Part shown: piece after piece, positions 1,110-20,170 of the stretch
How the letters are laid out: the number at the start of each line of letters is the position of its first letter
Position numbering within the stretch: position 1 is the stretch's first letter
The notes under the pieces: generated by a model
Database searches by the model: none
Told to the model about the DNA's origin: nothing
Seen by the model: the letters and a program-made list of their open reading frames with translations, nothing else
Program-made: the position numbers and the translations under genes
Source: a virus
Direction: 5' to 3' (one strand)
IMG/VR virus record: IMGVR_UViG_3300019776_000134
Coordinates: 1 to 20,170 of that record
Length of the DNA stretch: 20,170 bases

Positions 1110-1307
1110 TCAATGGCCCTCAAATTTACGATAGTTTTCTATTTCCTTTTCAATCAATCGCATTATTTGAATTGTTTTCGGTTCCTGTTCCTGCCATTGC
1201 GTTAATAGGCCACGTCTAACGCCAGCAGTTTTGCAGATTGCATTTAATGTGGTGCCCATATTCAGGCATTCCTTACGCCATTTAATTACAATATTTTCAT
1301 CATCCAT
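1110..1307 (-). CDS. Small HTH DNA-binding protein, candidate Cro/CI-like regulator
   Basis: The 65-residue basic protein carries a helix-turn-helix-like segment at about residues 19-40: TLNAICKTAGV, then RRGLLTQWQ. A C-terminal helix (IQIMRLIEKEIENYRKF) follows. This resembles small phage and Bacteroidota HTH proteins in which an A-G-V turn precedes the recognition helix. I use ATG 1307; the frame is open further upstream, but that would run through the start of the divergent exonuclease gene and past the promoter. It has its own promoter box (1312-1319) and terminator (1044-1081), so it is a one-gene unit. Its divergent position next to the recombination genes, with a dyad in the spacer, suggests it represses that promoter and perhaps its own. 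Regulatory role is inferred. Confidence 0.65.
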   Translation of the reverse strand: MDDENIVIKWRKECLNMGTTLNAICKTAGVRRGLLTQWQEQEPKTIQIMRLIEKEIENYRKFEGH

Positions 1308-1311
1308 ATTA

Positions 1312-1319
1312 CAAATATA
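1312..1319 (-). promoter_or_regulatory. -7 box of the HTH gene promoter
   Basis: TATATTTG on the minus strand is an exact TAnnTTTG match, followed by four bases (TAAT) and the ATG at 1307. A TTG lies 23 bases upstream, slightly further than the usual spacing of about 20. The transcript would start at or next to the ATG. Confidence 0.55.
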
Positions 1320-1326
1320 CGAAATT

Positions 1327-1346
1327 ATTGCATAAATTTGCACAAT
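1327..1346. promoter_or_regulatory. Candidate operator dyad in the divergent spacer
   Basis: ATTG-CAT-AAATTT-GCA-CAAT is an imperfect palindrome in which 7 of 10 base pairs are symmetrical, centred on AAATTT. It covers the plus-strand -7 box and reaches the exonuclease start codon, where a bound repressor would block transcription. The small HTH protein next door is the obvious candidate ligand. Confidence 0.4.
1333..1340 (+). promoter_or_regulatory. -7 box of the exonuclease/recT promoter
   Basis: TAAATTTG is an exact TAnnTTTG match, followed by CACA and the ATG at 1345. No convincing TTG is found about 20 bases upstream. The transcript would be nearly or fully leaderless. Confidence 0.5.
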
Positions 1347-2097
1347 GGAGAAACACATATTGTCAAAGTCACGCCTGGATTTAATACACAAAGCCCCTGT
1401 ATTATATAAAGCGAAATACATTGATGGCACTTTAAAAGGATCGGATGACAGCCCGGCCTTAATATTGGGCAAGGCTTTACACTGTCGCATTTTGGAGCCT
1501 CAAGAATTTGGGAAACGCTATACAATAGCCCCACAGATTGATAAACGCACAAAAGAAGGTAAAGAGTTATGGAATCGGTTTTTAATTGAAACTGAGGGCC
1601 TCACAGTGCTTACGCGTGAGCAAGATCATCAGATTGAAGCAATGGCAAAAAGCGTTTTTGAACACCCAGCGGCTGCGCTTTTATTAAAAAAGGATGGCAA
1701 AAGCGAAATTATGGTTAATTGGCAAGACGAAAGCCTGGTGCCTTGCCGTGGGATTATTGACCGGCTAACTGATGACGGGTTGATTATTGATTTAAAAACA
1801 ACGGATGATGCAAGTCCTAAGGGTTTCGCTAGATCAGTGCACAAATATCGTTACCACGTGCAAGCTGCATTTTATTGGGATGGTGTGCCCAATTCACAAG
1901 GTTTCTTTTTTATTGCAGTGGAAAAATCAGAGCCTTATTTGGTTGGGGTTTACTATTTAACCCAGGATGATCTAAACAGAGGCCGTCAAGAATATAAAGA
2001 AGATATTGCTCGTTTTATTGAATGCGTGAAACGTGATGAATGGCCTGGCTATGGCGATATCGTTCAAGCTTTAACACTTTTTAACTATGGAAAATAA
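1345..2097 (+). CDS. PDDEXK-family exonuclease of a phage recombination pair
   Basis: The 250-residue protein matches the RecE C-terminal/DUF3799 type of PDDEXK nuclease, which resects double-stranded DNA ends to expose single strands for annealing. Visible motifs in order: GKALH (residues 42-46), E121 in SEIMVNW, D139 in CRGIIDR, D149-x-K151 in IIDLKTT, and Q173-x-x-x-Y177 in QAAFY. These correspond to the active-site and helix motifs of lambda-exonuclease and RecB-like nucleases. The length fits a stand-alone nuclease domain without the long N-terminal part of E. coli RecE. It is the first gene of a rightward pair and overlaps the RecT-like gene by 11 nt. Its promoter faces the HTH gene across a 37-bp spacer, so it is probably an early, repressible gene. 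Confidence 0.88.
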   Translation: MEKHILSKSRLDLIHKAPVLYKAKYIDGTLKGSDDSPALILGKALHCRILEPQEFGKRYTIAPQIDKRTKEGKELWNRFLIETEGLTVLTREQDHQIEAMAKSVFEHPAAALLLKKDGKSEIMVNWQDESLVPCRGIIDRLTDDGLIIDLKTTDDASPKGFARSVHKYRYHVQAAFYWDGVPNSQGFFFIAVEKSEPYLVGVYYLTQDDLNRGRQEYKEDIARFIECVKRDEWPGYGDIVQALTLFNYGK

Positions 2098-2659
2098 AGA
2101 AATAACACAACAACCCACTGGCTTTGAAGTCGCACAACGCGAAGCAAAAGCACTGTCATCATCTGACCTTGTACCTCAACAATACAAAGGAAACGTCGCC
2201 AATACTTTGGTGGCTTTAGAAATTGCACATCGCATAGGCGCAAGCCCATTGATGGTGATGCAAAATCTTCACATCATTCATGGCCGTCCATCATGGTCTA
2301 GCACTTTTGTAATTGCTGCAATTAACGGATCCGGAAAGTTTACCGCTTTACGCTTTGTGGGCGATCTTAAAACTGGCATCAAAGCCGTAAGTGTTGAAAA
2401 GGCGACAGGCGAGCCTATTGAAGGCCCAGTCGTTACAATGGACATGGCGAAAGCCGAGGGATGGTTAGACAAGGCCGGGAGCAAGTGGAAAACAATGCCT
2501 GAACTGATGATGCGCTATCGTGCAGCTGCTTTCTTTGGCCGTTTATATGCGCCCGAAATTACAATGGGAATGCACAGCGTTGAAGAAATCATTGATATAA
2601 CTCACGAAGAGCCAAACGCAGTTGCGCAGCTCAACGCAATGATCAGCCCAAAAGATTAA
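2087..2659 (+). CDS. recT: RecT-like single-strand DNA annealing protein
   Basis: The 190-residue protein resembles the RecT/Bet superfamily. It has a substrate-like opening (LVPQQYKGNVANTLVALEIA), then HRIGASPLMVMQNLHIIHGR, in which position on the fold is set by the G-x-x-P pattern. A C-terminal segment R-Y-R-A-A-A-F-F-G-R-LYAPE-ITMGMHSVEE is typical of phage RecT relatives. These proteins coat and anneal the single strands made by the partner exonuclease. It is shorter than E. coli RecT (about 270 residues), lacking much of the variable C-terminal tail. Its start lies inside the end of the exonuclease gene (11-nt overlap), so the two are co-translated. Its 3' end overlaps the convergent lysin gene by 17 nt, and a terminator follows 32 bases later. 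Family assignment is good; the exact subfamily is uncertain. Confidence 0.8.
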   Translation: MENKEITQQPTGFEVAQREAKALSSSDLVPQQYKGNVANTLVALEIAHRIGASPLMVMQNLHIIHGRPSWSSTFVIAAINGSGKFTALRFVGDLKTGIKAVSVEKATGEPIEGPVVTMDMAKAEGWLDKAGSKWKTMPELMMRYRAAAFFGRLYAPEITMGMHSVEEIIDITHEEPNAVAQLNAMISPKD

Positions 2660-3206
2660 CGATATCTTTGGATTCTATTAGTGTATACGTAAAGCGGTTG
2701 CCGTGATGGGCGGCCGCTTTTTTTGCTAATAGCATAAACTCGTTAAAATCAGCAACTCGCTTAAATACCTGGCATCCATGGCTCCAGTCGTCAACTCGTG
2801 CGCTATCAACTCCAGCCTTATGTATGTTGATTCCAAAAACGCCAGTTTCAGTTTTATCAGTTTGATAGATTCCATCTTTTGTATAATCACGATACACAGT
2901 CACCGGACCGCATTGTTTTAATGCCTCATATTTTCCCTGGTGTAAACCGATGGCGTGGCTTCCTCTGTATTGGTTGCAAACTAGGCGAGCGGTTCCGCCT
3001 CCGTTGTCTGTGGTGATCATCCATTTTTTGATTTGCCAAACGCCACCGACTTGATAAACCACATAAAGCAAATCATCAAAAGCATTAGTAACTTTATTGC
3101 CGGTTGCAGAGTTGCGCACCCCAATAATATTCAGGTTATAATCACCGCCCTCAAAGAAAGCGTATTTCTTAGCAGCCATCGTGGCTTTGATTTGCTCAAG
3201 TGTCAT
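2643..3206 (-). CDS. Lysin with an L,D-transpeptidase (YkuD)-like H...SHGC motif
   Basis: From ATG 3206 the product is 187 residues. It carries NLNIIGVRN (residues 24-32), a region RGSHAIGLHQGKYEAL, and FGINIHKAG with H129 followed by W-S-H-G-C (142-145). This spacing of His and a following SHGC matches the catalytic H-x(n)-[ST]HGC signature of YkuD-type cysteine enzymes, which act on peptidoglycan peptides. I recall similar proteins as lysis-region genes of Bacteroidota phages. It has no signal peptide, so it should depend on the upstream holin. I prefer 3206 because it forms an ATGA junction with the upstream gene and the residues before it are not needed. An in-frame ATG at 3260 with AGAGGTGAT before it is an alternative that adds 18 residues. 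Lytic activity is inferred. Confidence 0.75.
   Translation of the reverse strand: MTLEQIKATMAAKKYAFFEGGDYNLNIIGVRNSATGNKVTNAFDDLLYVVYQVGGVWQIKKWMITTDNGGGTARLVCNQYRGSHAIGLHQGKYEALKQCGPVTVYRDYTKDGIYQTDKTETGVFGINIHKAGVDSARVDDWSHGCQVFKRVADFNEFMLLAKKAAAHHGNRFTYTLIESKDIVNLLG
2692..2724 (+). terminator. Rho-independent terminator of the recombination operon
   Basis: AAGCGGTTGCC, a six-base loop GTGATG, and GGCGGCCGCTT form an 11-bp stem (two G-T wobbles) at 2692-2719, directly followed by a run of seven T ending at 2724. It starts 32 bases after the recT stop. It lies entirely inside the last codons of the oppositely oriented lysin gene. Confidence 0.85.
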
Positions 3207-3508
3207 AGTATTGCGAAAATAAGTGTTAATAATGAAAGTCCAATGCTCACGCGTTGCCATTTGATCACCTCTTTGCTAGTTGCCTGTATACAATCTAAAA
3301 GCTTAGTTTGTATCTTATCCTGTTGGGCAATGACAGCACTGTCAACTTTACGAAACTCACGGCAAAGCGCTAAATTTTCTCTGGCTTCTGCGCCCTTAAT
3401 CAGGTAGTAATTACTTTCCGCAACTGTCGAGCTGTCGGTGCATTGCGATAAGGCGCTTTGTGGCACCGCAAGAAGTATCGCCAGAATAATAAATGTAAAG
3501 CGTGTCAT
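3203..3508 (-). CDS. Exported membrane-anchored protein, candidate spanin partner
   Basis: The 101-residue product has a signal peptide-like N-terminus (residues 1-22: basic TR, hydrophobic core FIILAILLAV, then QSALSQ) with Cys23 right after it. A polar, helical middle follows (residues 24-80), and residues about 87-101 form a C-terminal hydrophobic helix. The cysteine lacks a proper lipobox (S-Q-C rather than a small residue at -1), so lipidation is doubtful. The first 98 nt lie in a different frame inside the 3' end of the 3411..3704 gene, the nested arrangement typical of Rz/Rz1 spanins. The start cannot move without destroying the signal sequence. Position between holin candidate and lysin supports a role in outer-membrane disruption; the family is not recognised. 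Confidence 0.65.
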   Translation of the reverse strand: MTRFTFIILAILLAVPQSALSQCTDSSTVAESNYYLIKGAEARENLALCREFRKVDSAVIAQQDKIQTKLLDCIQATSKEVIKWQRVSIGLSLLTLIFAIL

Positions 3509-3704
3509 ATTTTTGATTGATTAGAACTTGAGTATCGTGAAGAGTTTTGTATTTTAATTTGATTTTCAAAAGAGTATCGTGCAATAACTCTATTTGCTTA
3601 TCAATTTGAGTGATTTTAAGGGGCTTTTCAGGCACTTTCGCAATGGTATAAAGGCAAAGTGCCAATATCATTAAACAAACTATCCAAAAGCCCCCGTTTT
3701 TCAT
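3411..3704 (-). CDS. N-terminally anchored coiled-coil protein, candidate inner-membrane spanin
   Basis: The 97-residue product has one N-terminal transmembrane helix (residues about 6-22, FWIVCLMILALCLYTIA). A charged region with heptad-like spacing (residues about 30-72, with IDKQIELLHDTLLKIKLKYK) follows, then a C-terminal part with two cysteines (SCG and SCGK). This is the layout of an inner-membrane spanin: short cytoplasmic tail, anchor, periplasmic coiled coil. The ATG overlaps the holin candidate's stop in an ATGA junction. The last third of the gene is overlapped out of frame by the start of 3203..3508. Sequence similarity to a known spanin is not evident to me, so the role rests on topology and position. 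Confidence 0.65.
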   Translation of the reverse strand: MKNGGFWIVCLMILALCLYTIAKVPEKPLKITQIDKQIELLHDTLLKIKLKYKTLHDTQVLINQKYDTLYIYYSGDTSCGATKRLIAMHRQLDSCGK

Positions 3705-3934
3705 TCTTCGTTTTTGGGTTTGCCGCTGAATTTGTCAACAGAAGTGAATCCAAGTGTCAAAATAACAACCCATTCAACGGATTCAACCAACTCTTTTGAC
3801 GGTGCAATTTCTGCAGGGCTCAAGGAATTGTGCGCCATAGTGCCGAACAAAACGAAAGCACCAATGATTCCGACAAAGCGTTTTGAACTCAATTCGCCTT
3901 TATCGCCTTTAAATATTTCTAGTAATTTTTTCAT
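3701..3934 (-). CDS. Two-helix membrane protein, candidate holin
   Basis: The 77-residue protein has a polar start (KKLLEIFKGDKGELSSKR), a first hydrophobic helix at about residues 20-36 (FVGIIGAFVLFGTMAH), a short loop, and a second helix at about 54-68 (EWVVILTLGFTSVDKF). It ends in a charged tail (SGKPKNEE). Size and two-helix topology fit a class II holin, and the SSKR motif before the first helix is familiar from small lysis-region membrane proteins of Bacteroidota phages. It lies two bases after a tiny basic gene and is coupled by ATGA to the spanin candidate downstream. Without a family hit the holin call is by context; it could be another small membrane protein. Confidence 0.65.
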   Translation of the reverse strand: MKKLLEIFKGDKGELSSKRFVGIIGAFVLFGTMAHNSLSPAEIAPSKELVESVEWVVILTLGFTSVDKFSGKPKNEE

Positions 3935-3936
3935 AG

Positions 3937-4056
3937 TTATCTACCTTGGCCACGATATTTTTTCTCTGGCTTGTTATTTTTTGAATGTACACCCTTGTTT
4001 TTACGCTTAGGCTTTGGTTGCCACTTTGCAGCTGCAGTTACTTTTGTCTTTGCCAT
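3937..4056 (-). CDS. Tiny highly basic phage protein (39 residues)
   Basis: This short frame fills the gap between two lysis-region genes. Its ATG overlaps the upstream TAA by one base (TAATG), and its TAA ends two bases before the next ATG. The product has 14 lysines or arginines and one acidic residue, with KPKRKNKGVHSKNNKPEKK in the middle and an ending KKYRGQGR. I recall similar very short proteins with a terminal Y-x-GQG-[RK] from Bacteroidota phage and bacterial genomes, but know of no function. The charge suggests binding to nucleic acid or ribosomes. The exact fit to both neighbours is the strongest evidence. It is easily missed by gene finders because of its size. Confidence 0.75.
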   Translation of the reverse strand: MAKTKVTAAAKWQPKPKRKNKGVHSKNNKPEKKYRGQGR

Positions 4057-4427
4057 TATCTTTTAATCCCGTTTAGTTGCAGCATATTGTTGATGCTAAG
4101 CGTGTCCATTTCAGCCAGTGCTGTATCGACTCCCATAAACATCATAGTAACAGCGTATTTTTCAACTTTTGCTTCCATCACTTGCGCCTTTTCTTCAGCT
4201 TTAATAACTGCTTCTTTCAACTCTGCCTTTTCTGCAACCTTAGCCTCTACCATTTTTTCAGTTACGGCTTTGGCTGCTTTGGTTGCCATTCCCACTGCGT
4301 GAGTATTATGCTGAATCTTTTTGAGCAGTGCATTTATTTCATTTTCGGGCGCTGGCTTAACTGCCCAACTTTCAGTAAATAAATATCCGCAGATAAATAG
4401 AAACGAGAAAATGTATAGAACCCTCAT
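4056..4427 (-). CDS. Exported or anchored coiled-coil protein, unknown function
   Basis: The 123-residue protein begins with a hydrophobic segment (residues about 3-22, VLYIFSFLFICGYLFTESWAV) that could be a signal peptide or anchor. A long alanine/lysine/glutamate-rich helix covers residues about 40-95 (for example KAELKEAVIKAEEKAQ), very likely a coiled coil. The C-terminal part is richer in methionine (MMFMGVDTALAEMDTL). It lies four bases after 4432..4713 and is joined by TAATG to the tiny basic gene. Its topology resembles the two other small anchored coiled-coil proteins of this region, so it could be a spanin-like or envelope-spanning protein. No family is recognised. Confidence 0.6.
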   Translation of the reverse strand: MRVLYIFSFLFICGYLFTESWAVKPAPENEINALLKKIQHNTHAVGMATKAAKAVTEKMVEAKVAEKAELKEAVIKAEEKAQVMEAKVEKYAVTMMFMGVDTALAEMDTLSINNMLQLNGIKR

Positions 4428-4431
4428 CGTA

Positions 4432-4713
4432 TTAAAGTTTTTTCATTGAGTTAATTATGCGTAGTTCAGTGATCGCCGCAGACAAAGCACTATCGGCAGT
4501 TTTGAGCGCCCTGTAAGCCTGTTTTTGTTCTGCTCTTAGCTGCGCCATCTCTTTCCGGCATTCGTCAATTTGTTGCTGATTCCCCGAACGCAAATCCATA
4601 TAAAGATAGCTAACTGCCAACAACATACAAAAAGCCACGGCAGCAACTGGATTTTTACGAAATTGGTCAAAGCTAACAGGTAGCGCATTGGGTTTTATTT
4701 TTGGAGCAGTCAT
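4432..4713 (-). CDS. Single-span membrane protein with coiled coil
   Basis: The 93-residue protein has a polar start of about 20 residues, a transmembrane helix at about 22-40 (PVAAVAFCMLLAVSYLYMDL), and a C-terminal coiled-coil-like region (QQQIDECRKEMAQLRAEQKQ and onwards). The predicted orientation puts the coiled coil outside the inner membrane, again like an inner-membrane spanin, although two further candidates lie downstream. The start codon is joined to the previous gene by a TAATG-type junction at 4713. I do not recognise a family. Confidence 0.6.
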   Translation of the reverse strand: MTAPKIKPNALPVSFDQFRKNPVAAVAFCMLLAVSYLYMDLRSGNQQQIDECRKEMAQLRAEQKQAYRALKTADSALSAAITELRIINSMKKL

Positions 4714-4943
4714 TATTCAGTAGGTGGAAATGGTGGTGGTAGTGGTGGTATGTATTCGGCTTCGGGTAAATCTAAAACCCAAGCCCATTCGGTTGTTGCA
4801 ACAACTTGCTTGTCCTCATCGGATAGGAATAAAAACCAAACATTATCGATTGACAAAACGCAATTAAAGAATTGGTATTCGGTGTAATACTGACCTTGTA
4901 CTTGGTTGTATTCATTTTCTGAAAGTGTATATCCTATTGACAT
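4713..4943 (-). CDS. Small aromatic, proline-ended tail-region protein
   Basis: The 76-residue soluble protein is rich in Y, W and F (for example QYYTEYQFFNCVLSIDNVWF) and ends in a proline-rich tail (YIPPLPPPFPPTE). The pattern suggests a compact beta-rich domain with an extended C-terminus. It follows the tail-tip gene by six bases and is coupled to the next gene. Small proteins of this kind, with a W-x-x-x-L-x-x-A-E-Y then prolines, are familiar from the fibre region of Bacteroidota phages, where they may be minor tail or fibre-assembly proteins. Function unknown. Confidence 0.6.
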   Translation of the reverse strand: MSIGYTLSENEYNQVQGQYYTEYQFFNCVLSIDNVWFLFLSDEDKQVVATTEWAWVLDLPEAEYIPPLPPPFPPTE

Positions 4944-4949
4944 AATTTG

Positions 4950-5756
4950 TTAAACATTACGAGATAAAGTGGTTTGAAACGCTTGTACTGCGGTGTAAAA
5001 TAATGATAAATTAGTATTTGATAAGCCATCACTAACACCCGCAAAACAATATCTTCTATCGGAAGGCGTTACAGGTACACCCGTTGATACTCGTTTAGCG
5101 GCACCTAAATACATTGTTTCGTTTATATATGTAAACCCATTTGTGTTTGTTGTTAAAATACTATTATTTCTAACGATAGAGTTTGTAGTGCCAAATACAT
5201 TTGCTTGAAAAAATCCCAAATTTGAAGAATTAAAAGGACTTGTAACAAATTGTGGTGGCCCACCATATAAACCTTGCAAACTATATGTTTCTGCATTAAA
5301 ATTCACTACACAATCATTTTCACTTGCCGTATCAATAATACCCAAGTCCCTTGATTGTGTCAAATTTGTTCCGTTATTATTGGTATAAACAAAAAAGTTA
5401 CCTCCACCACTTACGACTGTGCTTGGATTTAATCCCGTAGTCATGTACGAACTGGTACCATTCCCCGTCACTCCCGTACTCGCAAAAGTCCATCCACTTG
5501 TAAAAGTACCCGTAAATGAACTGCTTTTTAAGTTCTGAGCACACGCAGCAGCACTTGCGCCCACCATTGGGTAAATGGCTTTCATACTTGACCAAATACC
5601 CGCTGATTTCATATCCAATACCAATTGGTTCACCGCTTGTTTTTCGGTTGCAGATAACGAACCCCCTGCAGTAGTCACACGAGTAAAGAACGCAACTGCA
5701 TCCGCATCAAATGACGCAATCTGTGAGGCGATAATTCCGTTACTTGCTAATATCAT
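4950..5756 (-). CDS. Tail-tip or receptor-binding protein
   Basis: From ATG 5756 the protein has 268 residues. An N-terminal helical part (residues 1-75) carries SAGIWSSMKAIYPMVGASA, a motif I recall from tail proteins of Bacteroidota phages. It is followed by a long glycine/serine/threonine/asparagine-rich beta region (residues about 90-268), as in lectin-like or concanavalin-like binding domains. The frame extends to 5783, but ATG 5756 overlaps the fibre stop as TAATG, the junction used throughout this gene block. Its place after hub and fibre genes supports a role at the distal tail, most likely binding the host surface. The binding target is unknown, and such genes usually vary most between related phages. 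Confidence 0.65.
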   Translation of the reverse strand: MILASNGIIASQIASFDADAVAFFTRVTTAGGSLSATEKQAVNQLVLDMKSAGIWSSMKAIYPMVGASAAACAQNLKSSSFTGTFTSGWTFASTGVTGNGTSSYMTTGLNPSTVVSGGGNFFVYTNNNGTNLTQSRDLGIIDTASENDCVVNFNAETYSLQGLYGGPPQFVTSPFNSSNLGFFQANVFGTTNSIVRNNSILTTNTNGFTYINETMYLGAAKRVSTGVPVTPSDRRYCFAGVSDGLSNTNLSLFYTAVQAFQTTLSRNV

Positions 5757-6697
5757 TATGCTATATCTCCAAATAAATACCACTCATTGGTGTCAATTTT
5801 AATCAAAGTTGCACCGCTATATTGAGCATTCAATTTTAACTTTCCGCCATTGCTTCGGATCGTTACGCCACTTGTAGCAACGATGGTTGTTTGTCCTGCT
5901 CCGTATTGAGCCAACAAAATCTGTGTGCCTGTGCTGAATGCTACTGAACTATTTAAAGGAACGGTTAAGTTGTTTGCACTTGCGTTGTTAATTTCAACCA
6001 ATTTATCAGCATCACTCAAAACCAAAGTATAGGATGCAGTTTGTCTGTTGGTAGTGATCAGTTTATTTGTCTTGCTATCAATCTGCGTTTGAATGGCAGA
6101 AGTAACGCCATCAATATACCCGAACTCTGTATTTGAAACTGTACCTGAACCAATCGCAGTTGCATCAATTCCTGTCGCTGGTGCTACGCTGATATTCCCA
6201 CTACCTAAAAGCGAAGTGCTGTTGATAGTTTTGATGTTTGTACCCGAAACCAACGCATCTTGTTTGCTTGTTACCAAGCCACTATACTGCGAGTTGGTTG
6301 CATTGTCACCAGTATTTGTTCCGCTTGTGTTTCCCACAACTACCAATTGAGCATCGGTTACATAGCGTTTATTTGTTGAATCTGCGATATCTGCCGTTGT
6401 TGCATCTGCTCCAGCAGTTACCAAACCTTTTGAATCGTAGGTGACTTTTGTTTTAGTTGCTCCTGTTATCGCTCCGTTTCCAGTTACTTTCGCATCCAAT
6501 GCCGTTTGCGTAGCACTTGAAATTGGTTTGTTTGCGTCCGAAGTATTGTCAACATTGTTCAACGCCAAGCTAGTTTTAACTTGGGTTAAAGTGATTTTTT
6601 TGGTAGTGGTTGCAGACGTGTCAACTATGGGCAAAACGTCCGTCGCATTATCAATAGTGGAAATGGCGGTTAATTCGCTGATTTTTTGGTTGGCCAT
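5756..6697 (-). CDS. Repeat-rich tail fibre protein
   Basis: The 313-residue protein has fibre-type repeats: KKITLTQVKTSLALNNVDNT followed by SDANKPISSATQTALDAK near the N-terminus, then TEFGYIDGVTSAIQTQIDSK around residues 190-210. These segments are typical of trimeric phage tail fibres. The last 90 residues form a beta domain (TASYTLVLSDADK to NEWYLFGDIA) that resembles the C-terminal domain of the hub protein upstream. It starts 42 bases after that gene, an unusually large gap here, and carries its own -7 box four bases before the ATG. It may therefore be transcribed separately from the main late message. Probably part of the adsorption apparatus. Confidence 0.8.
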   Translation of the reverse strand: MANQKISELTAISTIDNATDVLPIVDTSATTTKKITLTQVKTSLALNNVDNTSDANKPISSATQTALDAKVTGNGAITGATKTKVTYDSKGLVTAGADATTADIADSTNKRYVTDAQLVVVGNTSGTNTGDNATNSQYSGLVTSKQDALVSGTNIKTINSTSLLGSGNISVAPATGIDATAIGSGTVSNTEFGYIDGVTSAIQTQIDSKTNKLITTNRQTASYTLVLSDADKLVEINNASANNLTVPLNSSVAFSTGTQILLAQYGAGQTTIVATSGVTIRSNGGKLKLNAQYSGATLIKIDTNEWYLFGDIA

Positions 6698-6701
6698 ACG
6701 C

Positions 6702-6709
6702 CAAAATTA
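6702..6709 (-). promoter_or_regulatory. -7 box before the tail fibre gene
   Basis: TAATTTTG on the minus strand is an exact TAnnTTTG match, followed by GCGT and the ATG at 6697. It lies in the 42-base gap after the hub gene. No TTG is found at the expected -33 position; the nearest is 15 bases upstream. Confidence 0.45.
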
Positions 6710-6739
6710 CGAAACGCCTACACGCAATTCGTTAACAAA

Positions 6740-9169
6740 TTACGGATTGTTCGCAATGATAAACCATTCGGTCCCATCGCAAATAATAGTAATGCTTCCA
6801 TAATTCCCATTGATATCAGCATGATCTGCGCCACTAATATTTTGCCCAGTGTAAGCTTGAATCGTAAGTGTATGTGCCGATCCTTTTTTCACAAAATAAT
6901 AGCGCTTACCTTTCTGGCCTGTTGCGGATGGCAAGTTAATTGTTACAGATCCAGTTGCGCAATCACCAATAAATCCCTCATAGGTTGTATCTAAAGAATA
7001 AGCCCCAGTTGTGTAAGTTTTAAACGTGCCATGTTCTTGCAATAGCCAGGTAATTGCTCCGGTGCTATTCGTGTAATTTAGCATCACCTCATATTGAGTA
7101 TTGGCTGAAGGCTGCGATGTGATTGGCTGATCAGCATAGTTTACTAAATATTCAAGTGTGCTTTGAGGCACTAAACTAAATTGCGAATTAAATGAGCTGA
7201 TGGCAAAATCATGATAATCTAAACGGCTTTGAATCACTCGCTCTCCAGTTCTAGGATTATAATTTACCCCTCCGCCAGCTGTCGCTTGTGTGTAATCAGG
7301 TGTTAATCCGAGCCATTCACCATCCCAAGTTTCAGATCGTGGGTTATATGTGCCCCCATTAAAAAGCCATCGTGTTGAATCAAACTGCAAAGTTTTGATT
7401 GCGCTCAACGTTCCGGCATCGTATAAAGTTCCCTGGATAACAGGTACAAATTTGTTATACATTCCGCCAATGCGTCGGCCTTGAATTGTGCCTAAATCCG
7501 AATGTATTGCTGAGGCATAGCCACTATACCAATCAGAAGATAAAACCCAACTGGTGCCATTATAGACGTAAATAGAGCCATATCCATAAGCGCCCTCACT
7601 ATCATAATATTTCGGCATCCATTCAATGCGCTGGCTGTTATTGCTAGCTGCTCCGGCAACTGAAATTGTATTTTTAGTGATCCGTGAATAATTTGGATTT
7701 TCAACAGTGCCAAAAGGTTGTGCAATACTGATTGATCCCCAGAAGTTAATTTGATTAAAACTGCTGGCAGTCCATGAATTAGGCGCAATAAACGATCCTT
7801 GTTCTGCGCTGATTTTCATGTCTACAAACATTCGATTATAACCACTCGGAGGCGCTGGCAATTGCCTATCAAATACATAAGTATTCCAGGCATTTCTTGC
7901 TTGGCCCATCGTCATGTATTCATTCAAATAAGTTGTGGGCCCCGTTGGTGTAAAATAATCATTGATATTTGGACTGTATTGTTTTACTGCGCCGCCAGAG
8001 TTTTTGAAATATATTCTGTATTCAAACGCATAACGCTGATATCGTTTTACTGAACTGCTTGTGATGGCAACATAACTGTTATCCATCCACTTAATAAGCA
8101 TTCTGCATCGAATGGCATTTGCATCATTAATGGATTGATCTATAACTGACAATTCAACACTATTCACATCCGGTTCAGTTCTAACAACCAAAATTGCATT
8201 ATCACGTTGTTCAATAACGTCTACTGACCTAACGGGCGGCTGATAAGTAAGCGTGGGCTTTGCCGCCCATTTTGGTCGTGCGCTTGTTCCTAGCGTTACA
8301 GCATGCGTTAAAGTTGTAGTTGATTGATAAGTGCCTGAAGTGTTATAGTTGCGTGTTGTAATGCTAGTTGCATTATAATTGTCATCCGAAACTATCCAAT
8401 ATGCGCCACTTTCTAAATGAATACGTGATCCATAGATTGATAAAATTTGCTCAATGGCTTGTTTGCAATTGGCTAAATCAATATTTGTTGTGGCGGCATA
8501 GCCGGTGCCATCGGTGTCAATGAAAGTAATATCACCAAACGCATCAAAATTGTTATAAAAAGACAGTATGTTTAATTTGGTATTTGCTAAGCCCTTATAA
8601 CTTGCCTGGGCAGTGTCGTACATTGTAACGCCATCTTTTAAATAAATAGAAGCTCCTAAATATGACCAATAATCATCTAGCTTTGCATATTTAATGCACT
8701 TGCGTATAATGTCTAAAGCGGTTGCCTGGTTGTCTGTAAACCACATTGGATCAATGTTAAAACCCTCAATCAAATTCAACGCATCCACAGCAACCAAATC
8801 AAAAATCATTGCGCCGTCAACAGATTCACGCAAATAGCTAGCTTGGTCCGCAATAACTCTTCCAACATAAAACAAATCAGACCCACGATATACGACTATG
8901 GCAAATTTGTTTTCCTCATTGTTTGCAATGTCAATAAATGCAGATTTTACCGTATTGTTTGGAATGTGCCAATAGGTTGTGATTCGTGATGGCCTTGTGA
9001 AATCCTGGTAATAAGTTGAGCCATCGCCTTGGCGCTCAATTTCAAAACCATCACCACTTAAAATTAATTCTGTGCCACTAGTTGTTGATCCAGTAGCGCC
9101 GTCGTAAAGCTCTACACGATACGTTATATTTTGAATGCTCTTGAATGAGCCATAGTAAATCCTAGCCAC
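6740..9169 (-). CDS. Large tail hub / baseplate-like protein
   Basis: The 809-residue protein follows the tape measure gene with an 8-nt overlap, using a GTG start (no ATG is available near the N-terminus). The first ~220 residues (MARIYYGSFKSI, FEIERQGDGS, FYVGRVIADQASYLRESVDG, LVAVDALNLIEGF) resemble a protein found after the tape measure in many Bacteroidota siphoviruses. There it probably replaces the distal tail and tail-associated proteins. A long beta-rich middle follows, with many Y, W, N and T. The last ~90 residues (AYSLDTTYEGFIGD to TEWFIIANNP) look like the fibre's terminal domain. It should cap the tail tube and carry fibre proteins. Hub role is inferred from position and N-terminal pattern. 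Confidence 0.75.
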   Translation of the reverse strand: MARIYYGSFKSIQNITYRVELYDGATGSTTSGTELILSGDGFEIERQGDGSTYYQDFTRPSRITTYWHIPNNTVKSAFIDIANNEENKFAIVVYRGSDLFYVGRVIADQASYLRESVDGAMIFDLVAVDALNLIEGFNIDPMWFTDNQATALDIIRKCIKYAKLDDYWSYLGASIYLKDGVTMYDTAQASYKGLANTKLNILSFYNNFDAFGDITFIDTDGTGYAATTNIDLANCKQAIEQILSIYGSRIHLESGAYWIVSDDNYNATSITTRNYNTSGTYQSTTTLTHAVTLGTSARPKWAAKPTLTYQPPVRSVDVIEQRDNAILVVRTEPDVNSVELSVIDQSINDANAIRCRMLIKWMDNSYVAITSSSVKRYQRYAFEYRIYFKNSGGAVKQYSPNINDYFTPTGPTTYLNEYMTMGQARNAWNTYVFDRQLPAPPSGYNRMFVDMKISAEQGSFIAPNSWTASSFNQINFWGSISIAQPFGTVENPNYSRITKNTISVAGAASNNSQRIEWMPKYYDSEGAYGYGSIYVYNGTSWVLSSDWYSGYASAIHSDLGTIQGRRIGGMYNKFVPVIQGTLYDAGTLSAIKTLQFDSTRWLFNGGTYNPRSETWDGEWLGLTPDYTQATAGGGVNYNPRTGERVIQSRLDYHDFAISSFNSQFSLVPQSTLEYLVNYADQPITSQPSANTQYEVMLNYTNSTGAITWLLQEHGTFKTYTTGAYSLDTTYEGFIGDCATGSVTINLPSATGQKGKRYYFVKKGSAHTLTIQAYTGQNISGADHADINGNYGSITIICDGTEWFIIANNP

Positions 9170-11051
9170 GTCGTGAATCTTTGTTATATCGTTCCAAAAC
9201 TATTGCCAAATCACGTCCTTGAATCTGAGTGCTTGCAATATATCCTGTATTGTCCCCAGTATTTAACATACCTTTCAATTTGTCCAAAGGTGCGATGATT
9301 TCAGGGTTTGTGCTTGCCCCAGGATATTCGCCCATAAGCCCAAGCGTTGGACCGCTTACAATACCACCGTCTGCAAATGCTGTGTATTTTGGGCCTTGGC
9401 TTAATTGAGCTCGCAATATTGCCGCACCCGCAACCAATGCAACACCCGCAGCAGCAGCTGCAAGAGGCTCTTTAAAAATTAATTCTTTAAATGCCTTTGA
9501 AGCGATTGCAGTTGTCACTAAAGCCGCTCCTACTGATTGCATAAAATTGGCAATGGCTCCCATCATGCTTTTACCAAAATTCGCTCCGGCATTTTTATCG
9601 CCTTCTGCAGTATCTGCGATGAATTGTGCAAATGAGTTTGCTGCATCAGTTTGCAATGTAGCAAATGAGTTATTGACGGCATTGGTAGCGTCTGCCATTT
9701 TTTGCTCGTAATCAGTCATGATTTTTACCTGTTCATCAGTGTTTTTCTGAAGATCAGTTGTCATGTCATTTGAAGCATAAGCGCCTCTAAATTTTGTAAC
9801 TGTTGGAGCCTTTGGGGCTGCGAATTGTTCTAATGGTTTGAAACCACTTATAAAGGCTTGTTCTTCGGCATAAATTTTTTGCGCCTCTTTTGCCGCCTTT
9901 TCGTTTTCTTTTGTTAATTCCTTATTGACTGCTTTAGTTGTAGTAACTTTTTGTTTTCCAACTGCTTTATGCGATTCAATTTCATCTAATTGAAATGCGT
10001 GTAATTTGTTTTGATATTCTTCATTAAGCCTAGTTCTAATATCAATGCTTTCTTTTTCATACCGAGCATAGATATTCTTTTTTTCTTCCTCATCTTTTCC
10101 TGCCAAACGCAATTCTTCAGATCTACGCTGATTTAATAAAATCAATGCATCTTCTCCGGCCTTTTTATATAATCCTTTTTGAGTTTCTAAGCTCTTTCTT
10201 TTTAATTCTAAAATAAATGCTTCGCTTTTGCCTTCTGCTTTTGCAGTTGCAATTGCAATTTCCAAACGGCGCTCTTCAAGTTTTATTTTCTTTTCTCCGT
10301 TTGACAATAAAGCATTTTGTGCTTCTTTTAAACGCTCTATATTTTTTTCAACCGCTGCAGTTTCTGATGCAAGTTTAGAAAGTAACATGCTTACCGCTGC
10401 AATAGATGCTGTCAACAACACCCAGGGCCCAGCTGACAATGCTAAATTTAATGCTCTTGTTGCTACCGTTGCGCCATTAGTTGCAGCTGCATAAATTGAT
10501 GTTGCTGCAGCGCTCAAACCTTGACGAACTGCACTTTCTTCTTGTAATGCATTTCCAATGGCCTGTAATCCGTTGACAATAGCCATAGTAGATTGCAATT
10601 TGACCATGGCCTCTTGCAAATCTTTGCCACCAATGCCGGCTAATTGCAAAGCGCCTTCCATAGCACCAAATCCTCCGGCTAAAGCTTGAACGCCACCCAA
10701 TACAGCATCCAAACGCCTAGTATCGCTTGAAAAATATCCAACCTCAGCACGTGCATCGCCGATGGCGTCCTTCATTCGGCCCGCCTGTTTGATGATTTCG
10801 TTAGCAACATTTGCAAACTCTGGACCCAGAGCCCTAGCTTCCATTGCCAACTGCGTCAATTGTCTTACGCTTCCCATTGTCGGGTTGCGTGTTGCAATTG
10901 CAGCCAAACGCTCTTCCATTCCCTTGGCCGACTTGGCAACCTCGGCACTCATTTGGTTGCTGCTCTTTTGAACTACCTCAATGGCTTTGTTAAAACCTTC
11001 ACGCAGTTTCTCAATGTCTGCACCAATAACGATATTTAAACTTTTTGCCAT
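9162..11051 (-). CDS. Tail tape measure protein
   Basis: The 629-residue protein is long, helical and alanine-rich. An N-terminal region (SLNIVIGADIEKLREGFNKA) is followed by coiled coil, and a hydrophobic helix lies at about residues 207-226 (AGPWVLLTASIAAVSMLLSK). A lysine/glutamate-rich coiled coil (residues about 230-380) follows, with further hydrophobic stretches near residue 550. It ends with FADGGIVSGPTLGLMGEYPG and NPEIIAPLDKL, a hallmark of tape measure C-termini. It sets tail length and probably passes through the membrane during DNA entry. At about 1.5 angstrom per residue the tail would be near 90-95 nm. The ATG overlaps the preceding stop as TAATG. Confidence 0.92.
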   Translation of the reverse strand: MAKSLNIVIGADIEKLREGFNKAIEVVQKSSNQMSAEVAKSAKGMEERLAAIATRNPTMGSVRQLTQLAMEARALGPEFANVANEIIKQAGRMKDAIGDARAEVGYFSSDTRRLDAVLGGVQALAGGFGAMEGALQLAGIGGKDLQEAMVKLQSTMAIVNGLQAIGNALQEESAVRQGLSAAATSIYAAATNGATVATRALNLALSAGPWVLLTASIAAVSMLLSKLASETAAVEKNIERLKEAQNALLSNGEKKIKLEERRLEIAIATAKAEGKSEAFILELKRKSLETQKGLYKKAGEDALILLNQRRSEELRLAGKDEEEKKNIYARYEKESIDIRTRLNEEYQNKLHAFQLDEIESHKAVGKQKVTTTKAVNKELTKENEKAAKEAQKIYAEEQAFISGFKPLEQFAAPKAPTVTKFRGAYASNDMTTDLQKNTDEQVKIMTDYEQKMADATNAVNNSFATLQTDAANSFAQFIADTAEGDKNAGANFGKSMMGAIANFMQSVGAALVTTAIASKAFKELIFKEPLAAAAAGVALVAGAAILRAQLSQGPKYTAFADGGIVSGPTLGLMGEYPGASTNPEIIAPLDKLKGMLNTGDNTGYIASTQIQGRDLAIVLERYNKDSRRG

Positions 11052-11539
11052 TAGATTATAATTTTATCGCCAGTTTCTAAAAGTATAAAATCACCAGATT
11101 CTAACAATAAATCGGATTCAACTGTCGGCGCAGAATAAATATAATTTAATAAATAATCTTGCGAAACTTGATAAAGCCCAGAAAAAGCAGCAACGTCATC
11201 AGCCGTGTGATTTTCGCCGTCAAACTCAACACGTTGCAGATAACATTCGTTAAATAGATCAGGCGTCACCGCATCATCAAACGCAGCTCTCACTTGTCCG
11301 CTCAATTCAATTGCATCAGCAAAACTAGTTGCATAAATATTCACTTGAACCCTAGCAAATTCAGTGCGAGAATGACCGCTATTTGTTGGATTTGCTACTA
11401 GAGAAACAAGGTTGTAACTAATAGCAGGAAAGGTGCTTTCTTGTGGAATTCTAACCGGATTTAAGCGGCTGCCTACCAACGACGTTACGCCCGTGGCATT
11501 GCTTAAGATGGAATAAACTATTTTTATAGGTGCGCTCAT
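11051..11539 (-). CDS. Tail terminator / completion protein (DUF3168-like) with LLLE-type tail
   Basis: Residues 1-135 match the DUF3168-type tail terminator: IVYSILSNATGVTSLVGSR, IPQESTFPAISYNLVS, RVQVNIYATSFADAIELSGQ. This protein caps the tail tube on the head side. The final ~25 residues (ESDLLLESGDFILLETGDK, then III) form a repeated LLLE-type beta segment of the kind often attached to virion proteins of phages. It is coupled by ATGA to the chaperone T region and by TAATG to the tape measure gene. In most siphoviruses this gene sits before the tail tube, so its place after the chaperones is uncommon. Confidence 0.8.
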   Translation of the reverse strand: MSAPIKIVYSILSNATGVTSLVGSRLNPVRIPQESTFPAISYNLVSLVANPTNSGHSRTEFARVQVNIYATSFADAIELSGQVRAAFDDAVTPDLFNECYLQRVEFDGENHTADDVAAFSGLYQVSQDYLLNYIYSAPTVESDLLLESGDFILLETGDKIII

Positions 11540-12209
11540 GCCTTGGCGTCTGGTGTTAATTTATCAAAGACATGCGAATATAACTTTAAAGCCTCATGGA
11601 TTCCGATGTGATCAGATTGCTCCCATGGAAATGTTAACAGACGTTTGGGCTCAATGGGTTTCTTTAAGTGCGGAGCCATGCCAGTTGCAACTGCCCAACG
11701 TGTGATTTCCCATTGATTTTTATAAGCTTGTTGCTGCGCCTCACGCATGCCTTCTAAACGCAAACGCCAATAACGAGGCGTGCATTTTAAAAATTCACGC
11801 TCAGGCATTAACATTTCTCCGTAAGCTATGCGCTCAATTTTGCGCCAAGTTAGCGGTGCGCCATCGCCCTTGGCAGTTACTCCCCCTGGCCTTCTTCCGC
11901 AGGTGCAAAAAATTCATTGACGGCGGTTGTAAAACCTTCTAAAGCCGGACTGATTTCGTGAAACTTTTTAAGGCTTGCACCAAGTTTTTGTACAGTTGGA
12001 AAAGGGGTTTGCTTGCCTTCATTTTCATAAGCTTCCAAAATTCCGTAAAATGCGCAATGCAATGCAAAATCCATTGATTTAGCTAGATCCTTTTGAATGC
12101 TTAAATCGGCAAATGTTTCCATCCCGGCAACTTGCATAATGTTGCGCAGGGAATTCATGTTAAACAAAAGGGGGTGTTGAACACCCCCGATTTTAATTGT
12201 TGTGCTCAT
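11536..12209 (-). CDS. Tail assembly chaperone G-T fusion made by -1 frameshift
   Basis: If ribosomes slip back one base on the G-run at 11882-11886, reading continues past the stop of protein G into the open -1 frame down to 11536. The fusion is then 224 residues: 109 from G, then GVTAKGDGAPLTWRKIERIA, YGE, and the 92 residues that begin MLMPEREF. The T part (FLKCTPRYWRLRLEGMREAQ, then a PKRLLTFPWEQ ending) has the look of T-type chaperone regions. It would bind the tape measure and recruit tail tube subunits; it is not part of the virion. The 92-codon frame from ATG 11814 might also be read alone, but its homologous region begins upstream of that ATG, which favours the fusion. Confidence 0.8.
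11844..11886 (-). promoter_or_regulatory. Programmed -1 frameshift signal (G-run, spacer, hairpin)
   Basis: On the minus strand GGGGG (11886-11882) lies two codons before the TAA of protein G. A seven-base spacer AGTAACT follows. Then comes a stem GCCAAG (11874-11869) with CTTGGC (11849-11844), extended inside by GGCG/CGCT. The geometry suits ribosomal slippage. It is not a perfect X-XXY-YYZ site: the A-site codon GAG would re-pair poorly with GGA. Confidence 0.75.
11877..12209 (-). CDS. Tail assembly chaperone G
   Basis: The 110-residue protein is mostly helical (FNMNSLRNIMQVAGMETFAD, SMDFALHCAFYGILEAYENE, AVNEFFAPAEEGQGE). It sits between the tail tube and the tape measure genes, the standard place for the G chaperone of lambda-like and HK97-like tails. 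It is made in excess over the G-T fusion and keeps the tape measure soluble until the tube forms around it. It has its own -7 box four bases before the ATG, lying in the 18-base gap after the tail tube gene. The last codons hold the frameshift site. Family assignment rests on context, size and the frameshift. Confidence 0.8.
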   Translation of the reverse strand: MSTTIKIGGVQHPLLFNMNSLRNIMQVAGMETFADLSIQKDLAKSMDFALHCAFYGILEAYENEGKQTPFPTVQKLGASLKKFHEISPALEGFTTAVNEFFAPAEEGQGE

Positions 12210-12213
12210 GGCA

Positions 12214-12244
12214 CAAATATAATAGTATTAAGCAACAGTGCCAA
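12214..12244 (-). promoter_or_regulatory. Complete Bacteroidota-type promoter before chaperone G
   Basis: On the minus strand TTG (12244-12242), exactly 20 bases, then TATATTTG (12221-12214), then TGCC and the ATG at 12209. Both elements and the spacing match the -33/-7 consensus. The -33 element lies in the last codons of the tail tube gene and the -7 box in the intergenic gap. This is the best-formed promoter in the window, and would give a leaderless or nearly leaderless message. Confidence 0.6.
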
Positions 12245-16299: not shown

Positions 16300-17571
16300 T
16301 TAATTTATTGTTTGGTTGTTCACCCCGTCGGGATTGTTGTTTTTATTTGCAGAGCTCATCAATTGAGCAATCTTTGCGTCCATATATTCGTTGACTTGAC
16401 TTGATGGCATCAAATTGGCTTCAATTAAATACTCATCACCGCCATCAAATCCGTTGACATCCTCATACATTCTCGCTTCGTTTCTAGAAAGCCAACCGCC
16501 TCGGATGCCTTTATTGTAATAATCTGCGCGCTCGTTGGCGCTGGCTCTCAGCAGCGAATTAAAGTTAAATTTGAAATAATAAGTAAGCTTATCATTTTCT
16601 GTTAACAGCTTGCGAGCCATTTCTTGTTCGATGTTGATTGCATAACTCATCAAAGTGCGAGCATAAAAATCTTGATATTCTTGCTCGACGCTGCCCATCG
16701 TTCCTTCTTTTGCTCCAATCATTGATGCGGGAACACCAAAAATTCGGGCAATTTCTTCAGCAGAAAATTTACGGGTTTCTAAATACTGAGCCTCTTCAGG
16801 GCTCAGGCTTAATTTTTCCATTTTAATCCCGTTTGGAAGCACTGTTGACCTGCTTGCGCCATCAACTACATCATCTAACGATTTTTTCAATGGACCGGCT
16901 TGCTCAGGTTTAATTTGCGAATCTGATGTTAACAAGAATTTTAAAACACCGTTTTTATAAACTCCAGCGCTCTGGCTAATAGCAGCCAAATCAATTCCCA
17001 AGGTTTCAGCATGCAACACAACAGGGCTCAAACCCACAAGCGGATTGTCGCCACACATTCCTTTAAAATGTAGCATTTCTGTTGCTGGAATCATTCCAGG
17101 ATAACCAGCCTGAGAAACTTTGTAAAACAAAATTCCATCTTGCATGACCGGTGTAACAAACTGCGGTGCGATTGGGTGTAATTCCACGCCAATATTTCGC
17201 ACATCACGATTGATAAAAGCATAAGCGTTGCCAGTTAATGCTAAGTGGCTTGCCATGTATTTAATGAAATCGTATTTAGTTTGATAAGGGTTGGGATCAT
17301 TTGTTAATGATGTCGCATAATGCACGATCACCAATTCTCTATTTTGGCCATCATCTTTATAAAGTTTTAAGCCAAGGCCCGCAATTCCATCCGCAATTAC
17401 CCTAACGCAAGCGTGTACCGACGCAATGCTCAATGCTGTGGTATTATTGACGGCTTGCCCTGATTTGGTTTGATATCCAAAAACATTGTTTAAGGTATTG
17501 ACAAACCAATCCGCTGGCTGCGATAGCATTGACCGCTTTTCGGGTTTCCGTTGCCAAAATTTTAAATTCAT
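16300..17571 (-). CDS. Portal protein (HK97 family)
   Basis: From ATG 17571 the protein has 423 residues and matches the HK97-type portal family. It shows IASVHACVRVIADGIAGLGL and KLYK near the N-terminus, DFIKYMASHLALTGNAYAFI, LHFKGMCGDNPLVGLSPV, then KFSAEEIARIFGVPASMIGA and GSVEQEYQDFYARTL near the C-terminus. It forms the ring through which DNA enters and leaves. The frame runs three codons upstream to a TTG at 17580, but ATG is the simpler choice. A weak -7-like GTAATTTG lies six bases before the ATG. Confidence 0.94.
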   Translation of the reverse strand: MNLKFWQRKPEKRSMLSQPADWFVNTLNNVFGYQTKSGQAVNNTTALSIASVHACVRVIADGIAGLGLKLYKDDGQNRELVIVHYATSLTNDPNPYQTKYDFIKYMASHLALTGNAYAFINRDVRNIGVELHPIAPQFVTPVMQDGILFYKVSQAGYPGMIPATEMLHFKGMCGDNPLVGLSPVVLHAETLGIDLAAISQSAGVYKNGVLKFLLTSDSQIKPEQAGPLKKSLDDVVDGASRSTVLPNGIKMEKLSLSPEEAQYLETRKFSAEEIARIFGVPASMIGAKEGTMGSVEQEYQDFYARTLMSYAINIEQEMARKLLTENDKLTYYFKFNFNSLLRASANERADYYNKGIRGGWLSRNEARMYEDVNGFDGGDEYLIEANLMPSSQVNEYMDAKIAQLMSSANKNNNPDGVNNQTIN

Positions 17572-17616
17572 CGCCCGCAAATTACAACTGCCCTAAATTT
17601 CCGTTGTTAACAAATC

Positions 17617-20117: not shown

Positions 20118-20125
20118 CAAATATA
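20118..20125 (-). promoter_or_regulatory. -7 box of the late operon promoter
   Basis: TATATTTG on the minus strand is an exact TAnnTTTG match, 15 bases before the small terminase ATG. No proper TTG lies 19-21 bases upstream, so the promoter may need an activator. A short dyad TCAC-GTGT-GTGA lies further upstream at 20152-20163. Confidence 0.5.
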
Positions 20126-20170
20126 CAATTATACCCTTAAAAAGTATTTTCTCACGTGTGTGAAGAAAAG

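Follow-up and report, generated by a model that had tools for sequence, protein, structure and literature searches.

Promoter boxes at a fixed distance from the start codon suggest leaderless messages at module heads in a phage clade

The messages of Bacteroidota are without Shine-Dalgarno leaders, and to our knowledge translation start in Bacteroidota phages has been little studied. The promoters of sigma-ABfr, the primary sigma factor of the phylum, are among the closest described systems. Within those F. johnsoniae promoters that were judged real, 4-5 nt separate the box from the transcription start, and the box extends from T-12 to G-5 (PMC6847099). Similarly, the box of F. psychrophilum lies at -12 to -5, and a related motif at -12 to -5 in this species, TAnnTTGY (SM5), has been ascribed to an alternative sigma factor (PMC9723704). 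The usual Bacteroidota leaders are about 20-30 nt long (PMC7366714, PMC9723704). Short leaders were reported at rates of 3.7% in B. thetaiotaomicron (PMC7366714), 5.5% in F. psychrophilum (PMC9723704), and up to 13% in F. johnsoniae (PMC6847099). Among phages, the lambda cI message is naturally leaderless and begins at the AUG (PMC8138138).

The DNA analyzed here, called the window, is the whole 20,170-base viral stretch of IMG/VR record IMGVR_UViG_3300019776_000134. Its minus strand carries, in order, TerS, TerL, portal, protease, capsid, connectors, tail tube, and a tail-chaperone-like pair, followed by the tape measure, large tail protein, fibre, and lysis genes. An exonuclease and RecT are encoded on the plus strand. 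The first-pass annotation of the window reported four genes with an exact -7 box, four further bases, and then the ATG (TANNTTTGNNNNATG). All four sites were located and are exact; however, the list missed the portal gene, where the strongest version of the arrangement is found with a variant box. The four boxes and their genes are as follows.

1312..1319, minus strand: -7 box TATATTTG followed by N4 (TAAT) and ATG 1307-1305; exact match, site 1319-1305.
1110..1307, minus strand: small regulator candidate, HTH-like and 65 aa long, whose first codon is the boxed ATG; identity from the sequence only, no Pfam or PHROG match.
1333..1340, plus strand: -7 box TAAATTTG followed by N4 (CACA) and an ATG at 1345; exact match, site 1333-1347.
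1345..2097, plus strand: PD-(D/E)XK exonuclease of recombination (PHROG exonuclease VIII, 4e-79; PF12684).
6702..6709, minus strand: -7 box TAATTTTG of the fibre gene, followed by N4 (GCGT) and ATG 6697-6695; exact match, site 6709-6695.
5756..6697, minus strand: fibre / minor tail protein (PHROG minor tail protein, 1.4e-26).
12214..12221, minus strand: -7 box TATATTTG followed by N4 (TGCC) and ATG 12209-12207; exact match, site 12221-12207.
11877..12209, minus strand: tail-chaperone-like gene, so named from its place between tail tube and tape measure and from a second ORF overlapping it in the -1 frame; no Pfam or PHROG match.

The pattern TANNTTTGNNNNATG was observed 4 times in the window, and about 0.55 occurrences were expected from dinucleotide-preserving shuffles, none of which reached four matches in 100 trials. 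The box TAnnTTTG alone is not enriched (31 observed, 25.9 expected). This indicates that the excess in the window is an excess of position. Given the box density of the window, its 32 gene starts should yield 0.025 matches at spacing 4 by chance (P(>=4) = 1.5e-8). The window has 704 ATGs, yet the four matches all sit on these 32 starts (hypergeometric P = 3.5e-6). Since the spacing was picked after the data had been seen, these P values carry less weight than the independent tests in relatives and other sequences, which are the fairer ones.

A megablast of the window against deposited phages gave no match, and at the DNA level there is no close phage among them. The source samples of the clade are freshwater. 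Hundreds of relatives are present in IMG/VR, with identities of 85-100% for the portal, 71-91% for the tail-chaperone-like protein, and mostly 55-90% for the fibre. The relatives of the window lysin belong mainly to Bacteroides and crAss-like phages. No prophage was found when the portal was aligned with 84,980 species genomes. Alignment of the lysin matched one Flavobacteriales MAG, which was used only as the centre for sampling Bacteroidia and not as a host; genome-wide pattern counts in one MAG were too noisy and were set aside.

The spacing was then counted as distinct contexts over about 240 related viral loci, with TAnnTTTG placed before an ORF-opening ATG. Spacing 4 accounted for 56 distinct contexts and spacing 5 for 26, whereas the neighbouring spacings 3, 6, 7, and 8 had 2, 4, 17, and 10. 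The first-pass annotation had tied its reading to an enrichment of this spacing in relatives, and 4 and 5 are indeed the peak. The reversed box gave 9 and 3 contexts at these two spacings and peaked at 9-10, and no peak at 4 or 5 was seen with either reversed or reverse-complement boxes in these loci. When every spacing between 0 and 40 is allowed, 49 of 240 gene families have a box. Spacing 4 is the majority in 11 of the 49; the next highest count for a spacing is four families. Orthologue starts were checked for 32 window genes, and over 20 of these genes, some with as many as 133 orthologues, had zero boxes; these orthologue counts all come from one clade and are not independent of each other. 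Of 54 relatives, 21 have a box before the lysin gene at spacing 5, but this candidate was rejected: the box consists of codons of the C-terminus of the preceding gene and is not kept in the other relatives.

Isolated phages and host chromosomes were examined in the same way. The 11 isolated Bacteroidota phages examined contain 13 genes with the box at spacing 4-5, two with it at 0-3, and one with it at 6-8, a few of the counted ATGs being internal to the longest ORF. Genes of this kind are found, for example, in Flavobacterium phage 11b (at 4930 and 21116 of AJ842011) and in Polaribacter phage P12002L (at 5260, 13709, and 1757 of KR136259). Beyond 8, the spacings form a broad set from 16 on, and 4-5 is a separate class. 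In 60 Bacteroidia genomes, TATATTTG-Nk-ATGAAA matched 66 times at k=4, 37 times at k=5, and 23 times each at k=3 and k=8. Within 800 kb of host stretches, box spacings of 3-8 and of 14-24 are both in use. Spacing 4-5 was found in 14 of 49 boxed families of the phage clade versus 17 of 181 in the hosts (Fisher p = 0.0015). The predicted leaderless class thus occurs across the phylum, but at low frequency, and this phage clade is richer in it. The chromosomal leaderless genes of Bacteroidota (about 4-13%, with leaders <10 nt; PMC7366714, PMC9723704, PMC6847099) share the geometry described here; in the host sample, too, spacings 4-5 are elevated, but such genes are rarer per boxed gene than in the phage group. 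The motif TAnnTTGY showed no peak at 4-5 in hosts or isolates as a general leaderless box. In Flavobacterium phage 11b (L286:4858-5340), the annotated TerS gene has an in-frame ATG 72 nt past its start, with a box 4 nt ahead of this ATG, and the annotated start may be too early.

The two spacing peaks in the phages, 4 and 5, are exactly the box-to-start values published for F. johnsoniae. The first-pass annotation stated that transcription in this promoter class begins a few bases past the box, and the published start-site data give this distance as 4-5 nt. N4-ATG would therefore put +1 on the A of the ATG, and N5 would put it within one base. Other hallmarks of the class were compared over 16 families. 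The two free positions of the box contain no G (TAHHTTTG) in 15 of the 16, versus 753 of 1134 background boxes (p = 0.028), and the sequence upstream of the boxes is A+T-rich. TTTG is found at -35/-34 in 4 of 16 families and TTG at -35 to -33 in 6 of 16; the TTG/TTTG near -33 is weak in F. johnsoniae too (PMC6847099). The boxes thus share with sigma-ABfr promoters the motif itself, the exclusion of G, the A+T-rich upstream region, and, as predicted, a start 4-5 nt downstream. They differ in that the start here would fall on the start codon and that an extra TTTGTTAAC lies 21 nt upstream at two loci. The box signal is the ordinary promoter of the host and not an invention of the phage; only the TTTGTTAAC part looks phage-specific.

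Our main reading, given a probability of roughly 0.8, is that sigma-ABfr-type promoters starting at or near the A of the ATG would produce leaderless messages at module heads, with TTTGTTAAC acting at the portal and fibre genes. Host RNA polymerase would start at, or 1-2 bases from, the A of the start codon, and the message would be leaderless. The regulator and exonuclease would be headed by divergent, mutually overlapping promoters, the head module by the portal promoter, and the tail module by the promoter of the tail-chaperone-like gene; further promoters would head the fibre or its replacements and, in many relatives, TerS. Separate control of the modules, which we infer, fits promoters at the module heads. 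The leaderless interpretation in the first-pass annotation is supported by the 4/5 peak in relatives, isolates, and Bacteroidia chromosomes together with the published starts. As a prediction from sequence, it is well supported.

The fibre and portal loci carry a bipartite form of the signal, with the following additional features.

6731..6739, minus strand: TTTGTTAAC upstream element of the fibre promoter, exactly 21 nt before the fibre box, at -42 to -34 from the predicted start.
17606..17614, minus strand: TTTGTTAAC upstream element of the portal promoter.
17577..17584, minus strand: variant -7 box TAATTTGC (TAnnTTGY) of the portal, followed by N5 (GGGCG) and ATG 17571-17569.

The fibre promoter, which follows the large tail protein gene, reads TTTGTTAAC-N21-TAnnTTTG-N4-ATG. 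TTTGTTAAC is present at this locus in 68 of 72 relatives, with a gap of 21 throughout. The box in the 72 relatives is TAnnTTTG-N4 in 48 and N5 in 2, and in the other 18 given here it is lost (TAATTTTA-N4, 9 relatives) or shifted (TAAATTGC-N7, 9 relatives). Of 92 fibre orthologues, 39 have the box at spacing 4 and two have it at spacing 5. The proteins encoded behind this promoter are of at least three unrelated kinds, namely the MxxQKISEL fibre, MAVALY, and MAEASID/MAQASID. This indicates that the promoter and its distance to the ATG outlast gene replacement. The segment 6695-6742 of the minus strand, after the large tail protein gene, is a site of gene exchange, in relatives too.

Similarly, the portal region 17569-17614 of the minus strand reads TTTGTTAAC-N21-TAATTTGC-N5-ATG. 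The full element with TAATTTGC was found in 98 of 102 portal orthologues (N5 in 59, N4 in 39), and the other four keep the arrangement with TGTTAAC. This makes ATG 17571 the probable portal start in the window, in place of TTG 17580, which falls within the box. In the N4 relatives, this TTG is out of frame, and many portal matches begin at residue 4. The portal box fits the TAnnTTGY motif of SM5 promoters of F. psychrophilum exactly, its position resting on the predicted start; what differs from SM5 is its combination with TTTGTTAAC-N21.

Among 198 Bacteroidia genomes, the whole bipartite element had four matches and its reversed control had more, which indicates that the element is not a host class. 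In viral contigs, the gap of 21 was compared with a control gap of 18 by the share of matches opening long ORFs. Among the matches listed, long ORFs were opened by 62 of 107 at gap 21 versus 14 of 119 at gap 18, and nearly all of those listed behind a proper box at gap 21 belong to this clade. GTTAAC was considered as a general operator and dismissed: the other TTTGTTAAC sites fall mostly within conserved coding sequence. The position of TTTGTTAAC at -42 to -34 would suit an activator or a -35-type contact. The portal and fibre promoters would also need, or be controlled by, TTTGTTAAC, which is most likely a clade-specific activator site or an alternative -35-type contact. A more tentative proposal is a late promoter class particular to the clade, TTTGTTAAC-N21-TAnnTT(TG/GC)-N4/5-ATG, by which a phage activator or an altered polymerase would make the head and fibre modules leaderless together. 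If so, translation of late genes could be favoured when infection changes the initiation machinery of the cell.

Orthologues provide the strong test of the spacing, as in the tail-chaperone-like gene. Its box sits in an 18-nt gap after the stop of the major tail protein and is kept in all 136 orthologues, 134 of them with spacing 4 and 2 with spacing 5, over 29 distinct contexts. The per-column identity of the box flanks is 34-91%, and the start context ATGAGC is fixed; the alignment requires the box, so only the variation of the flanks is informative. At 11877-11916 of the minus strand, the second ORF of the pair overlaps the final 37 nt of the first one in an open -1 frame, adjoining CAGGGGGAG, an overlap that resembles the programmed frameshifts of tail chaperones.

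The boxes could be real promoters with the true start codons further downstream, behind ordinary leaders. The start codons here are predicted, the usual leaders of about 20-30 nt (PMC7366714, PMC9723704) would agree with this, and boxes in the host stretches also cluster at spacings 14-24. However, the boxed ATG and second codon of the tail-chaperone-like gene are invariant in all distinct contexts, the protein is conserved from residue 1-5 onward, and no further in-frame ATG occurs until codon 18. Conserving an exact distance from box to ATG would also be pointless for an unused ATG, but this distance is conserved even before unrelated genes. We consider downstream starts improbable. Slightly less credible still is that TAnnTTTG-N4 is a translation signal, an unusual ribosome contact in a read-through message with a leader. 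The motif is fixed to the ATG, and the tail-chaperone-like and fibre genes may share one long operon; yet the motif is the published promoter box, with its exclusion of G, A+T-rich upstream region, and, in some families, TTTG near -33, and the identical box is found upstream of host genes at other spacings. Moreover, the gap between TTTGTTAAC and the box is fixed at 21 while the spacing from box to ATG varies among 4, 5, and 7, which indicates DNA recognition. A few chance matches inherited within a young clade would explain counts taken from related sequences and a window sample of four, but this is very unlikely given the chance level in the window, the divergence of the flanks, the 11 families with spacing 4 as majority, and the independent signal in 11 isolated Bacteroidota phages and in Bacteroidia chromosomes.

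Leaderless starts at module heads remain our preferred reading; short leaders predicted at some of these heads count against it. One such case is TerS in the window.

20118..20125, minus strand: -7 box TATATTTG before TerS, 15 nt before ATG 20102, giving a short leader.

The box is at spacing 5 in 44 of 59 TerS orthologues, whereas the TerS of the window has it at 15. Further upstream, some 50 nt from the start of TerS, TCACACACGTGA lies at 20152-20163 of the minus strand, and a similar TCACACATGGGC / CACACCCGTGC, then AAAATA, is found upstream of TerS in relatives. In four relatives (L106, L115, L135, and L165), GTTAAC lies 10 nt before the TerS box; the corresponding distance at portal and fibre is 21 nt. 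The regulator and exonuclease boxes of the window stand back to back with 13 bp between them (1305-1347). All four regulator relatives have the box at spacing 6, and exonuclease relatives with the divergent arrangement have it at 6 or 8, with the divergent boxes 12 bp apart. At spacing 6-8, these messages would not be strictly leaderless but would carry a few leader bases. With 13 bp between the boxes, both promoters could hardly be occupied at once, and the kept gap of 12-13 bp suggests mutually exclusive firing of the regulator and exonuclease promoters.

The lambda cI message likewise is a phage message that begins at the AUG, and a regulator gene is also among the boxed genes of the window. 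The two cases differ in the class of sigma factor, and the boxed genes here are mainly heads of structural modules, not a single repressor. Leaderless genes are already known in Bacteroidota and phage lambda; the arrangement is uncommon, and the literature searched held no report of leaderless messages in phages of Bacteroidota. In E. coli, leaderless translation shows a lower sensitivity to kasugamycin. The new element is a phage clade predicted to fix leaderless genes at module heads, with an upstream element of its own. With the distance between promoter and ATG fixed, exact transcript ends and true start codons can be predicted without data beyond the sequence, and a corrected portal start was predicted here in this way. 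The same spacing allows a direct test of leaderless messages as a coordinated class during infection.
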